Positions 4,114 to 43,429 of a DNA stretch of 64,000 nt are shown in pieces. The translations under genes and the position numbers were made by a program. The stretch is from Pedobacter petrophilus (GTDB lineage Bacteria > Bacteroidota > Bacteroidia > Sphingobacteriales > Sphingobacteriaceae), in assembly GCF_009674725.1 (NCBI RefSeq), contig NZ_WKKH01000014.1:1-64000 (forward strand), read 5' to 3'. Every line of letters begins with the position of its first letter. Positions within the stretch are counted from its first letter, which is position 1. Below the pieces are notes generated by a model that saw only the letters and a program-made list of their open reading frames with translations, did no database searches and was not told the DNA's origin.

Positions 4114-4225
4114 GAAACAAAATAATTCGAAACATTTTTTTGTTTCGAGAAAAATTGTTTCGAAAACCTGAAACAAAATAACTGGAAACATTTTTTTGTT
4201 TCGAAAAAATTTGTTTCGAAAAGCC
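4114..4225. repeat. 56-bp hairpin repeat, two units (cluster 2)
   Basis: Units start at 4114 and 4170, again 56 bp apart and in the same orientation as the cluster at 94-261. In the first unit TTCGAAAC (4126-4133) pairs with GTTTCGAA (4157-4164). The second is degraded to about 5 bp (GAAAC with GTTTC). The core GAAACATTTTTTTGTTTC is shared with cluster 1. Confidence 0.72.
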
Positions 4226-4493: not shown

Positions 4494-5273
4494 ATGAAAT
4501 TAACAGACAAGCAGATAGAATTTGGTTTTAACTACTATTTTAAAGCAGAACACGATCAGATTAAATCGATTGTTGAAGTTTCAGAATACAATGGCGAAGA
4601 GAAACTGATGATCAATTGTACGCAGCTAGGCGATTCTTTTACCCATCAATATAAAACCCAGAAAGATAAAAAGCGTGTGGTAACAGAATGGTGTGATTTT
4701 TTATCCCACAATGAAACAGCCTTTAAAGAGCTACATTTTGGAACCAGAATGCCACAAGAACTTTTTGATGCGGTTTGCAAGCAAAAACTACTAAAGCGGC
4801 TGGAAATTAAGTGGGGTGGTTATAAGGACATTTCAGCAATTGAAAATCTGGAAAATATCGAACTCCTCCATATGGGTTCTGGTGCAGGTGTGGAATCGAT
4901 TAAGCCCTTAGCTAAACTTGCAAAACTGATCGGCTTATCGGTAGAGAACTTCCAAAAAATCACCTCTTATACTGAACTTTCAAATCTATCTGCGCTCGAA
5001 AGTTTGAGCATTGAGGGTGATGCCTTCGGACCACAATACATCAAAATAGATCATCTTGATTTTCTAAGTGCAATGCCTCAACTCAAATTTTTCCGACTGT
5101 TGGCAGAAAGGCTGCAGAGCAAAGATTACAGCCCTGTTTTGTTGCTGAAAAACCTCGAACACCTATCTTTGAGCGCAAATAAAGAGGTTTTGAAACGCTA
5201 TGATCAACTCTTGGAATTACCCGAATTGAAATGGGGAACAATCAAAAACAGACCTGAATTATATAGGAAGTAA
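4494..5273 (+). CDS. leucine-rich-repeat-like protein
   Basis: A 259-residue cytoplasmic protein with no signal peptide. From about residue 95 it shows irregular leucine-rich repeats with the spacing LxxLxIxxxx: LLKRLEIKWGGYKDISAIEN, then LENIELLHMGSG, LAKLIGLSVENF, LSALESLSIEGD, LPQLKFFRLLAE-type segments and LKNLEHLSLSAN. Such repeats make a curved protein-binding surface. The N-terminal 90 residues are unrelated and charged. It has no operon partner; the next gene is convergent on the other strand. The protein-binding role follows from the repeat class, and its partner is unknown. Its place beside SUFU and DUF6985 proteins suggests it belongs to the same accessory island. Confidence 0.7.
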   Translation: MKLTDKQIEFGFNYYFKAEHDQIKSIVEVSEYNGEEKLMINCTQLGDSFTHQYKTQKDKKRVVTEWCDFLSHNETAFKELHFGTRMPQELFDAVCKQKLLKRLEIKWGGYKDISAIENLENIELLHMGSGAGVESIKPLAKLAKLIGLSVENFQKITSYTELSNLSALESLSIEGDAFGPQYIKIDHLDFLSAMPQLKFFRLLAERLQSKDYSPVLLLKNLEHLSLSANKEVLKRYDQLLELPELKWGTIKNRPELYRK

Positions 5274-27852: not shown

Positions 27853-28191
27853 ACCTCTTTCATTTTTAGCATTTAAGAAATAGAAGTTTAGGGTTCTAAA
27901 CCATCATATTATCACTGTTATTTATAATCCTATGATGGAAAAATCGCATTTACATCCGGCTAAGCCAAAGTACAAAATCTTCGTTCTACTTAAATCCGGC
28001 CTAACAAATTTTTCGGCAAGAACAGTCAAAGCCTAACAACTAACTTTAATAGAAAAATTTTCAGCCGGTGTTTTTTGTTTCTTTTTGACATCAAAAAGAA
28101 AAGAGCCGGTCCGGTCAGGACAAAAAATATATTAGCATGACATAGAAAAACCCAAATTATTATATTATTCCTTGAGACCGATATTTAAATA
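27853..28191. other. intergenic region with an 11-bp palindrome
   Basis: This 339-bp gap between convergent genes has no gene. TTTCTTTTTGA (28078-28088) and TCAAAAAGAAA (28091-28101) form a perfect 11-bp stem, flanked by T-rich and A-rich tracts. It could stop transcription from the minus-strand cluster or belong to a dispersed repeat. The remainder is AT-rich. Confidence 0.5.
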
Positions 28192-36428: not shown

Positions 36429-37576
36429 AGCGGACAGCTAAGCAGCCTCCAATGAAGATAGCAATCCGGTTATATCAATCATATTATCGAATTATCGAAG
36501 CATCTATTATTTCATAACCGTGGGTTTCAACCAACGGAAACTCCGGAGATCAAGCGTTCTAATCTCATTATAAAATAAATCGAGAATGCGGACAGCCGAA
36601 TCAGCCTCCAAGGAATATAGCATCCGGTCATATCAATCGTATTATACAAGCGTCTGTTATTTCATAACCGTTGGTTTCAACTAACGGAAACTCCGGAAAT
36701 TAAGCGCTCTAATCTCTTAAAAAATGAATCGAGAATGCAGGCAGCTTAAGCAGTCCGCAATGCAGATAGCAATCCGGTCATATCAATCGTATTATCGAAG
36801 CGTCTGTTATTTCATAACCGTGGGTTTTAACCAACGGAAACTCCGGAGATCAAGCTCTTTAATCTCTTTATAAAATGAACCGAGAATACAGGCAGCCTGC
36901 AAGGAATATAGCAATCCGGTTATATCAATCGTATTATACAAGCGTCTGTTATTTCATAACCGTTGGTTTCAACCAACGGAAACTCCGGAGATCAAGCGCT
37001 CTAATCTCATTATAAAATAAATCGAGAATGCGGACAGCCGAATCAGCCTCCAATGAAGATAGCATCCGCTCATATCAATCGTATTATCGAAGCATCTGTT
37101 ATTTCATAACCGTTGGTTTCAACCAACGGAAACTCGGAGATCAAGCTCTTTAATCTCTTTATAAATGAACTGAGAACGCGGACAGCTTAAGCAGTCCGCA
37201 ATGAAGATAGCATCCGGTCATATCGATCGTATTATCGAAGCGTCTGTTATTTCATAACCGTTGGTTTCAACCAACGGAAACTCGGGAGATCAAGCGCTTT
37301 AATCTCTTTATAAATGAACTGAGAACGCGGACAGCTTAAGCAGTTCGCAATGAAGATAGCATCCGGTCATATCGATCGTATTATCGAAGCGTCTGTTATT
37401 TCATAACCGTTGGTTTCAACCAACGGAAACTCGGGAGATCAAGCGCTTTAATCTCTTTATAAAATGAACCGAGAATGCAGGCAGCTGAAGCAGTCCGCAA
37501 TGAAGATAGCATCCGGTCATATCAATCGTATTATCGAAGCATCTATTATTTCATAACCGTTGGTTTCAACCAACGG
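36429..37576. repeat. tandem array of eight ~150-bp palindromic units
   Basis: Eight units with centres at 36518, 36668, 36818, 36960, 37110, 37258, 37407 and 37557 (spacing 150, 150, 142, 150, 148, 149, 150). Each has CCGTTGGTTTCAACCAACGG (a 9-bp palindrome with a 2-nt loop), then GAAACTCCGGAGATCAAGCG, an AT-rich stretch with AATCTCTTTATAAAATGAA, GAGAATGCGGACAGC, then AGTCCGCAATGAAGATAGCA, CCGGTCATATCAATCGTATT and CGTCTGTTATTTCATAA. Some units hold a second stem, GCGGAC ... GTCCGC. Units 2 and 5 are nearly alike, hinting at a three-unit higher-order repeat. Unit lengths not divisible by three rule out a protein repeat. It fills almost all of the valS-P-ATPase gap. Confidence 0.9.
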
Positions 37577-37611: not shown

Positions 37612-39594
37612 CTAAAACTTCATTTTCTGAATTCGAACTGCATTTAAAATTGCGAGTAAAGCAACACCGACATCGGCAAAAACAGCTTCCCACATGGTGG
37701 CTAAGCCACCGGCACCTAAAATTAAAACCAGCGCCTTAACTGCAAAAGCCAAAACGATATTCTGAATCACAACTTTTTTAGTGGCTTTACCAATTTTGAT
37801 GGCCGTTACAATCTTCGATGGCTGGTCGGTCTGAATCACTACATCAGCAGTTTCAATAGCCGCATCACTACCCATTGCCCCCATTGCAATTCCAATATCA
37901 CTGATAGCCAGAACAGGTGTATCATTTATACCATCTCCCACAAAGGCAACAACATTAGATTTAATGTTTTTAATTTCTTCTAATCTGGCAACTTTATCTT
38001 CAGGAAGCAGATCTCCGTAGAATGAATGAATACCTAACGTTTGAGCTACTTTTTTAACAATGCTCGTTTTATCGCCACTCAACATCACCACTTGTTTGAT
38101 ACCATTTTCATATAGCTGCTTAACAGCATCTGCCGAGTCGTCTTTAATTTCATCGGCTATTAAAACATAACCCGCATATTTTTCATCCACGCTCAATGCC
38201 ACTATGGACGCTTCTGTATCGTTTATTTTGAAATCAAAATCAATGTTAGACTTCGTTAAAAGCTTCGTATTTCCTGCCAGAATTTGCTTTCCATTTACAG
38301 TTCCTTTGAGGCCCATGCCTGAAATCTCTTCCACATTTTCTGCCAAATAACTGATGCCATCACCAACATATTGAACTATTGCCCTGGCAATTGGGTGCGT
38401 CGATTTAGCCTCTAATGCACCTAAGAGGTTCAAAAATTCAACCTTATCAATATTACTTTCTACTTTCTGAACTTTAAAAACACCCTTAGTCAGTGTTCCG
38501 GTTTTATCCATCACTACCGTATTCAACTTGGTGATTAAATCTAAAAAATTAGACCCTTTGAAAAGTATTCCATGAGCAGATGCAGCCCCGATACCACCAA
38601 AATAACCTAGTGGAATAGAGATCACCAACGCACATGGGCAGGAAATAACCAGAAAAACCAATGCGCGGTATAACCAGGTCTGAAACTGATACTCGCTTCC
38701 CAGAATTACAATTGGAATAGTCACTAAAGCAAGCGCAAGAAAGAAAACTATAGGCGTGTAAACTTTGGCAAACTTACGGATGAACAATTCTGTTTTTGCT
38801 TTTCTGGTGGTGGCATTCTGCACCATTTCTAAAATCCGGGAAAGCGCACTATCTGCAAATACTTTGGTAACTTTTATTTCAATAAGCAAGTCCAGATTGA
38901 GCATTCCCGCCAATACATTTTCACCTTTGCTAATGGTTCTTGGATTGCTTTCACCAGTTAAAGCAGCCGTATTAAAACTACTTTTTTCTGATAACATTTC
39001 TCCATCCAACGGGATTTTCTCTCCGGCTTTAATTTGAATGGTTTCTCCAACATCAACCTTTTCAGGACTCACACTTTCATATTTGCCATTACGTAAAACA
39101 TTGGCTACATCTGCCCTAACATCCAGCAAAGCTGAAATATTTCTTTTTGCCCGGTTAACAGCGGCCATTTGAAATAACTCACCGATGGTATAAAACAGCA
39201 TTACCGTTACGCCTTCCGGATATTCGCCGATAGCAAAAGCGCCAATTGTAGCAATGGACATTAAAGAAAACTCTGTAAAAAAATCTCCGGCTTTAAAGGT
39301 TTCCCAAACTTCTTTCAATACCGGAATACCAACTGGTAAATAAGCAACTATATACCAGTACGGGCGGATCATTTTAAAAGCTTCGATTTTAAAAACATTA
39401 TCGAATGCAATGCCAATAAGTAACATACCTAAAGTAACTATTGCGGGCAGATAAGTTTTAAATGATGACGGATCACCACCATGATCATGGTCATGTTCAT
39501 CGCCTTCTTCATGCGAGTGGCTGTGATGATCTTGGGTTTTTGAATGGGCTTTACTACTGCAACAGCTATCTTCTTGACTATGGGTATGGCTCAT
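37612..39594 (-). CDS. heavy-metal translocating P1B-type ATPase (Zn/Cd/Co type)
   Basis: A 660-residue inner-membrane metal exporter. The N-terminus is a His/Asp/Cys-rich metal-binding tail (EDSCCSSKAHS and HDHDHGGD) in place of an HMA domain. In order come TM helices, the actuator motif ALTGESNP, the intramembrane CPC in VISCPCALVISIPLGYFGG, the phosphorylation site DKTGTLTKG, the SHPIARAIV (HP) motif of P1B pumps, and the hinge VAFVGDGINDTPVLAISDIG. It should export Zn(II), Cd(II) or similar. There is no obvious metal regulator in the window. The array of 150-bp repeats lies just downstream of its stop. Confidence 0.92.
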   Translation of the reverse strand: MSHTHSQEDSCCSSKAHSKTQDHHSHSHEEGDEHDHDHGGDPSSFKTYLPAIVTLGMLLIGIAFDNVFKIEAFKMIRPYWYIVAYLPVGIPVLKEVWETFKAGDFFTEFSLMSIATIGAFAIGEYPEGVTVMLFYTIGELFQMAAVNRAKRNISALLDVRADVANVLRNGKYESVSPEKVDVGETIQIKAGEKIPLDGEMLSEKSSFNTAALTGESNPRTISKGENVLAGMLNLDLLIEIKVTKVFADSALSRILEMVQNATTRKAKTELFIRKFAKVYTPIVFFLALALVTIPIVILGSEYQFQTWLYRALVFLVISCPCALVISIPLGYFGGIGAASAHGILFKGSNFLDLITKLNTVVMDKTGTLTKGVFKVQKVESNIDKVEFLNLLGALEAKSTHPIARAIVQYVGDGISYLAENVEEISGMGLKGTVNGKQILAGNTKLLTKSNIDFDFKINDTEASIVALSVDEKYAGYVLIADEIKDDSADAVKQLYENGIKQVVMLSGDKTSIVKKVAQTLGIHSFYGDLLPEDKVARLEEIKNIKSNVVAFVGDGINDTPVLAISDIGIAMGAMGSDAAIETADVVIQTDQPSKIVTAIKIGKATKKVVIQNIVLAFAVKALVLILGAGGLATMWEAVFADVGVALLAILNAVRIQKMKF

Positions 39595-43371: not shown

Positions 43372-43376
43372 TTTTG

Positions 43377-43429
43377 GGGTTTAGGGTTTAGGGTTTAGGG
43401 TTTAGGGTTTAGGGTTTAGGGTTTAGGGT
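43377..43429. repeat. GGGTTTA tandem repeat, 7.5 units
   Basis: The 7-mer GGGTTTA repeats seven times without a mismatch and then has a partial unit. It lies in the intergenic region between the divergent mmcQ-like and mnmD genes. It resembles a simple-sequence microsatellite. Confidence 0.95.

Follow-up and report, generated by a model that had tools for sequence, protein, structure and literature searches.

The 64,000-nucleotide stretch of the Pedobacter petrophilus genome analysed here (the window; contig NZ_WKKH01000014.1, positions 1 to 64,000) contains, between valS and a heavy-metal P-type ATPase gene, eight tandem copies of a palindromic unit of about 150 bp (36429-37576). What is this array, and which enzyme, if any, could have built it? 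We propose, with a probability of about 0.84, that it is a tandemly repeated pair of repetitive extragenic palindromes (REPs) and the likely substrate of a single IS200-like Y1 transposase of subclass 1.2, acting in trans while its own gene stays put, i.e. a REPtron. This proposal draws on the anatomy of the units, covariation within their stems, the dispersal of the hairpins, the co-occurrence and adjacency of gene and hairpins, the fixed neighbourhood of the gene, and the conserved catalytic residues of its product.

The heads of the eight palindromes start at 36511, 36661, 36811, 36953, 37103, 37251, 37400 and 37550, giving spacings of 150, 150, 142, 150, 148, 149 and 150 bp, and Tandem Repeats Finder calls a repeat of period 150 over 36479-37576 (7.4 copies, 87% matches). 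Copies 4-8 are perfect (CCGTTGGTTTCAACCAACGG, with 9-bp arms and a 2-nt middle) and copies 1-3 carry arm changes. No perfect palindrome of this 9-2-9 layout appeared in 300 mononucleotide shuffles of the array, against five in the real sequence; the rest of the window holds two, unrelated to these, at 28080 and 30801. Identity between units ranges from 81.5 to 98.0%, with 109 of the 151 alignment columns invariant. Each of the six frames is interrupted by 16 to 32 stops and the longest stop-free run is 50 codons, so the array is not a protein repeat. In all these respects the first-pass annotation of this DNA, made from the letters alone, proved accurate: the eight units and their spacings, their position between valS and a metal ATPase, the exact palindromes of copies 4-8 and altered ones of copies 1-3, the non-coding nature of the repeat, and a second stem in some copies, which a covariance model recovers on the minus strand at four places (E<1e-4). 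It erred in naming units 2 and 5 as the best match, since the highest identity (98.0%) is that of the two segments closed by palindromes 6 and 7, followed by the two closed by palindromes 2 and 5 (94.7%). An array of clustered regularly interspaced short palindromic repeats (CRISPR) was ruled out, as the entire unit of about 150 bp repeats, rather than short repeats separated by unique spacers.

Together with its head, each palindrome forms hairpin A, which on the plus strand reads TTCAT-AA-CCGTTGGTT-TC-AACCAACGG. The second stem belongs to hairpin B, which on the minus strand reads TTCAT-TG-CGGACTGCT-TA-AGCTGTCCG and has the head and stem length of A and a similar middle. Since B follows the design of A on the other strand, a full unit consists of two inverted hairpins, B then A on the plus strand, with their unpaired TTCAT-like heads facing inward. 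The first-pass annotation had noted neither this shared design of the two stems, nor the TTCAT head, nor the transposase described below. Four units have a well-formed hairpin B; in others it is degenerate, and the 142-bp unit has lost part of it. The general design of both hairpins is TTCAT-NN-stem-TT(C/T)A-stem. The defining passages of three papers on REPs, bacterial interspersed mosaic elements (BIMEs) and REP doublets forming hairpins (REPINs) name a short palindrome, a conserved unpaired head, inverted pairs and a non-mobile Y1 gene flanked by the repeats (PMC3733652, PMC6006769, PMC8266576), and the anatomy of the unit matches an inverted REP pair of this kind (BIME/REPIN) repeated in tandem. 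The features of the locus are as follows.

36429..37576, no strand: tandem array of eight BIME/REPIN-like units; unit 1 opens with a degenerate hairpin B
36511..36537, plus: hairpin A copy 1, TTCAT head, one arm change; 36.3 bits
36661..36687, plus: hairpin A copy 2, one arm change; 36.8 bits
36811..36837, plus: hairpin A copy 3, two changes; 34.9 bits
36953..36979, plus: hairpin A copy 4, perfect; 39.7 bits
37103..37129, plus: hairpin A copy 5, perfect; found by anchor scan and covariance model
37251..37277, plus: hairpin A copy 6, perfect; found by anchor scan and covariance model
37400..37426, plus: hairpin A copy 7, perfect; found by anchor scan and covariance model
37550..37576, plus: hairpin A copy 8, perfect; the array ends here
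36738..36764, minus: hairpin B, weaker copy; 21.3 bits
37179..37205, minus: hairpin B (GCGGAC/GTCCGC), TTCAT head on the minus strand; 35.8 bits
37328..37354, minus: hairpin B; 32.2 bits
37478..37504, minus: hairpin B; 35.3 bits
33606..36284, minus: valS (PF00133, PF10458), start facing the array
37612..39594, minus: heavy-metal P-type ATPase gene (TIGR01525, TIGR01512), 3' end facing the array

Folded as DNA, copy 4 of hairpin A reaches -8.6 kcal/mol, a value equalled in 0 of 200 shuffles. Conservation of the pairing was assessed with a scan blind to it, which required no more than the hairpin's head and middle. In the 71 kb searched (the P. petrophilus arrays, the Y1 loci of the gene branch described below and two valS loci) there were 87 instances, of which 79 form 6 or more of the 8 pairs; the 150-kb control (the window minus the array, plus 27 other valS loci) yielded 11, three of them so paired. 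For the complete set of 56 distinct instances, the share of paired cells is 86%, falling to 64% once the 3' arms are shuffled, and the 102 two-sided changes exceed the maximum of 59 in 1000 shuffles. An alignment of 52 of these instances likewise places the covariation score and the number of cells with two-sided changes above all 500 shuffles. The stem (8-9 bp) covaries while head and loop stay fixed.

The same hairpins are dispersed through the genome. The palindrome (with up to two mismatches) recurs at six further sites, several of them tandem with a period of their own:

contig C19, 18 kb: six copies, period 119 bp
contig C19, 70 kb (C19b): five copies, period 129 bp
contig C2, 85 kb: four copies, period 139 bp
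contig C21, contig end: three copies seen
contig C12: two copies
contig C26: one copy

A covariance model of the hairpin gives 87 matches (E<=0.01) in the 5.47-Mb assembly of 148 contigs. The four arrays whose neighbours were read (the window, C19 twice, and C2) all lie between long frames. From B to A, the sequence is similar among C19b, C21 and C26 (z 8.2-9.4), and the spacers from A to the next B are mostly unlike between arrays (z -1.7 to 3.1). From such comparisons we infer an order of events in which a B-A pair would have been the mobile part and local DNA would have been caught up in tandem growth.

Y1 transposase genes (PF01797) were collected from hairpin-bearing genomes, and one group of them, sharing the motifs GYTDHxHCL and YIKNQEKHH, was found to be flanked by the hairpins. 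P. petrophilus has a single gene of this branch, a frame of 141 residues at bases 145-567 of contig C26, outside the window. The last 77 bases of C21 overlap exactly with the first 77 of C26, within a repeat unit; the gene therefore most likely lies directly after a hairpin array of the same kind, across the contig break. Its product scores 96.6 bits against Y1_Tnp, its HUH motif and tyrosine align with those of the IS608 transposase (2a6m), and it passes the IS200/IS605 model NF033573 (75.8 bits, cut-off 55). Unlike a REP-associated tyrosine transposase (RAYT), the linked enzyme is IS200-like: it stays below the cut-off of the REP-associated model NF047646 (30.6 bits, cut-off 80) and has, in place of the RAYT motif Y---NP, the sequence YIKNQEKHH, which contains the Y---Q--HH signature of TnpA-Y1 subclass 1.2. 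On this motif we file the gene, as a predicted assignment, under subclass 1.2.

All 24 genomes of the genus sample that bear this gene have one copy each. In genome G094 the order is a PD-(D/E)XK nuclease gene, hairpins, the Y1 gene and a GNAT gene, as in P. petrophilus. Within the genus, 21 loci were read over 2-3.4 kb each (20 from the 24 gene-bearing genomes, plus G130). All of them retain at least one of these two neighbours and 17 retain both, while neither occurs at the five loci from other genera; a well-paired anchored hairpin lies near the gene in 17 of the 21. With one copy per genome in 24/24 and a constant neighbourhood in 21/21, the gene does not behave as an insertion sequence, and the several copies or variable places of an IS200/IS605 element moving as a unit were not seen. 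The enzyme thus resembles IS200/IS605 elements in protein family and in having the same catalytic residues as IS608 TnpA, and the system differs from them in its one copy at a fixed place and its many hairpins dispersed without the gene. In G094 a small TTGGCTTTAGCCAA hairpin stands just upstream of the Y1 start codon (locus L043, 1460-1490) and a similar one is found in G013 (L050); the gene may thereby be regulated through a hairpin of its own.

The search of related genomes that the first-pass annotation had suggested, like the covariation analysis it had proposed, gave a positive result. The genus sample comprised 119 genomes, with model matches counted at E<=1e-4, and the family sample 151, with the gene branch defined by at least 246 bits (next best 211; the cut was set after the gap had been seen); p-values come from two hand-built Fisher tables. 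Hairpin matches are patchy in the genus (47/119 genomes), where they occur in 24 of 24 genomes with the gene and 23 of 95 without it (p=1.9e-12). In the family, a narrow pattern with the TTCAT head but free neighbours and stem ends is found in 12 genomes and its reversed control in none; the gene branch is present in 10 and both occur together in 9 (p=2e-11). In G051, the one gene-bearing genome of the ten that lacks the pattern, the hairpins next to the gene have a different stem. Among 30 hand-picked genomes, the 13 with the gene contain 1-96 matches (median 44) and the 17 without it 0-34 (median 0).

The association extends beyond the family. Hairpins lie beside 22 of 25 Y1 loci of the P. 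petrophilus type, 3 of 16 of the sister type, 1 of 9 RAYT-like ones and 0 of 2 of another IS200 type. In a tree of 43 class 1 Y1 proteins (hairpin defined as a stem of at least 8, a middle of 2-3, within 1 kb), they accompany 17 of 18 genes of the P. petrophilus branch (support 99/94), 8 of 8 genes of a second subclass 1.2 branch, where the stems are different, and 2 of 14 of a third; there were none beside two genes of another IS200 type. Because the tree loci had helped to find the pattern, 26 fresh loci of the P. petrophilus type were drawn from other families of the phylum, where 43 of 296 genomes gave a match at E<=1e-45. Hairpins are present at 24 of them (70 in 49.5 kb), compared with a single hairpin in 54 kb of control sequence, at 1 of 27 loci, and the apex of those with a 2-base middle is TTCA, TTTA or TTAA on one strand in 64 of 66 cases. 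In genome contigs the narrow pattern occurs in at least 116 stretches; 77 of the 80 matches listed carry Bacteroidota names, the others being Rhodohalobacter and two Ignavibacteria. A viral origin was considered and rejected, the narrow pattern having 0 matches in viral contigs. We regard as rather probable, with less assurance than for the array itself, a Bacteroidota-wide class of REPtrons in which domesticated IS200-like Y1 enzymes of subclass 1.2, not RAYTs, would maintain perfect hairpins with a fixed TTYA apex; such a class would have its origin on the IS200 side of the Y1 tree, and its TTCAT-headed branch in Sphingobacteriaceae would have built the arrays. Two details of these loci may be added. 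Four loci of the second subclass 1.2 branch (L061, L062, L065 and L067) have alternating flanking hairpins, of the CCCACGG and the AACCGTT/AACCATT types, and a lone subclass 1.2 Y1 gene in G116 (L020) has on both sides a long hairpin with a 19-20 bp stem and a TTTCAAA apex.

How could the system have produced the array? Single-stranded hairpins A and B would be the substrate of the subclass 1.2 Y1 (HUH) transposase, which presumably binds the TTCAT hairpins, cuts and rejoins the single-stranded DNA and so would spread REP pairs in trans, its own gene remaining in place; TTCAT itself may act as a guide tag. At the valS-ATPase site, a founder B-A pair and local DNA would later have been duplicated in tandem to give the eight units. 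Related genomes offer a view of this site. Thirty of the 116 valS loci found were read, with flanks of up to 1.5 kb, so that counts of the valS-ATPase order are minimum values. It was seen in at least 11 loci besides that of P. petrophilus, and two of the 11 carry the element: G214 has a B-A pair and one more A, and in G224 a B-like stretch precedes an A whose head is altered. The other nine have no element (in G158 the intergenic gap is about 210 bp). The element at this site is thus older than the P. petrophilus genome or arrived more than once, and its number grew to eight in P. petrophilus.

Several observations weigh against the proposed link between this enzyme and the hairpins, or reduce the force of the evidence for it. 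The 23 genus genomes without the gene that keep matches include two with 17 and 25 of them, and in the family sample G089, G116 and G135 have the hairpin pattern without the gene branch. In G035 the gene is a fragment with stops and in G196 a short fragment, both between the usual two neighbours and with hairpins present; here the gene seems to decay while the hairpins persist, but such fragments account for only two of the gene-less, hairpin-bearing genomes. G000, G094, G150 and G214 supplied hairpins for the model and match it by construction, and without them the genus comparison becomes 20/20 versus 23/95. Some gene-bearing genomes have just 1 to 4 matches, and the single match of G192 adjoins the Y1 gene, so that part of the link is adjacency; four of the 21 genus loci have no well-paired anchored hairpin near the gene. 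The 52-instance alignment leaves out four poorly paired instances of the 56, and its number of pairs with any two-sided change was attained in 104 of 500 shuffles. Within P. petrophilus, the B-to-A linker of the valS array is only weakly like those of other arrays (z 2.6-4.0), and two RAYT-like Y1 genes could in principle act on the hairpins. Across the phylum the TTCAT head is not shared, a loose test finding it at 11 of 26 Y1 loci and 9 of 27 controls.

The two RAYT-like genes provide the nearest rival enzyme. Located on contigs C3 and C67, they are intact open frames, and their products exceed the NF047646 cut-off of 80 with 102.8 and 117.4 bits, so that the hairpins might be REPs moved by them and not by the subclass 1.2 enzyme. 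We consider this a slim prospect: the palindromes beside these genes are different ones, with CTCGTT/AACGAG and TCCGG/CCGGA arms, and hairpins of the kind treated here lie by 1 of 9 RAYT-like loci, as opposed to 22 of 25 and 24 of 26 in the subclass 1.2 branch. On account of these other palindromes, the C3 and C67 genes, which resemble subclass 2.6 (YIHxNP), were rejected as the linked enzyme. The C3 gene (L010) adjoins a 205-bp repeat with CTCGTT/AACGAG palindromes, and a 60-bp tandem array with GGTTGAAACC follows further on (2364-2737, 4848-5119); on C67 (L011, 1148-1426) a 150-bp repeat in two copies, containing a TCCGGAAA/TTTCCGGA palindrome, comes after the gene.

Alternatively, no mobility may be involved, and the hairpins could be used by the host, as terminators, mRNA-stabilising ends or sites for nucleoid proteins, and amplified by ordinary recombination. 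Positioned upstream of valS and within the ATPase gene's 3' region, a REP might influence transcripts, roles of the transcript or nucleoid type appear for enterobacterial REPs in parts of PMC6006769 and PMC8266576, and the tandem growth resembles local duplication. Such use leaves unexplained, however, why the hairpins adjoin one transposase branch across genera and why they are so patchy, being present in 47 of 119 genus genomes and at 2 of 11 other valS-ATPase loci, and we think it improbable as a full account; a secondary host role beside the REPtron is possible. Of the explanations offered by the first-pass annotation, the selfish repeat gains from the dispersal and covariation of the hairpins, their occurrence in relatives and their tie to one Y1 branch, while the tandem small-RNA array loses ground. 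A small RNA would suit the two stable stems per unit, one unit folding well below its shuffles (z -5.05, DNA parameters), but a gathering-score search with Rfam gave 0 matches in the window, the outer spacers differ between arrays, and it is the hairpin with its head, in both orientations, that stays conserved between genomes; this reading is very improbable. Least credible of all is that the copy number is an artefact of assembly: the assembly is indeed in 148 pieces and a contig end interrupts another array of this family, but the units differ from each other by the identities given above, so that they are not a single unit multiplied by the assembler, and similar arrays exist in other genomes.

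The system has much in common with REPs and RAYTs (TnpA-REP) of Escherichia and Pseudomonas as outlined in the cited sections: (i) a headed palindrome in many copies, (ii) inverted pairs, (iii) tandem clusters taking in local DNA, and (iv) a Y1 gene that is non-mobile, occurs once per genome and has the repeats on its flanks. It differs in its perfect stem, its TTYA middle and its head, TTCAT instead of the GT[AG]G or CGTC given for those systems. According to the relevant part of PMC3733652, most REPs are of the GTAG or CGTC type, and CGTC repeats also occur in Bacteroidetes, without a transposase; neither tag of these two super-families is the head here. Considering this anatomy and tag, and a linked enzyme that passes the IS200 model and fails the REP-transposase one, we class the repeats as REP-like in anatomy and behaviour and assign them to neither of the published tag families.

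The closest points of comparison come from the 2018 survey of Y1 proteins (PMC6006769), whose tabulated entries place subclass 1.2 (Y---Q--HH) in Cyanobacteria and Bacteroidetes and give 'no' for REP and end structures; the automatic REP search described there used the GT[AG]G tag, which the present hairpins lack. The linked enzyme agrees with those entries in its Y---Q--HH and WQ motifs, its length (about 140-148 aa), its low copy number and its occurrence in Bacteroidota. It departs from them in its HUH motif (DHLH, against DH[IV]H in the survey table), and, unlike the surveyed subclass, two branches are REP-flanked here; the sister or third branch mostly fits the survey (2/14). REPtrons of subclass 2.6 and class 3 in the same source also have gene-side repeats without the GT[AG]G tag (class 3 having a CnGA foot), but their Y motifs are others, Y---NP in subclass 2.6 and a further one in class 3. 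The pairing of hairpins with subclass 1.2 is not mentioned in the available portions of PMC8266576 or PMC12306157, and we found no description of it in the open-licence PMC literature, the only literature searched. We therefore file the gene as a probable subclass 1.2 member in a REPtron-like setting, unlisted in the survey entries available. The origin of REPs and the retention of non-mobile transposases have been studied mostly with RAYTs in Proteobacteria, and an IS200-based REP system, if true, would be a second case for comparison. It would allow tests of whether the specificity of the enzyme is determined by the loop and head of the hairpin, and of whether the repeats become frozen once the gene is lost, and it supplies a name and a search model for Bacteroidota repeats left blank by annotation pipelines.

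The window also contains other repeats. Between two short genes (43373-43429) there are about eight copies of the heptamer TTTAGGG, a telomere-like sequence with no other run in the window. Two related short tandem arrays (93-238 and 4114-4222), with a unit of about 56 bp rich in GAAACAAAAT...TTGTTTC inverted motifs, perhaps represent another family of hairpin repeats.
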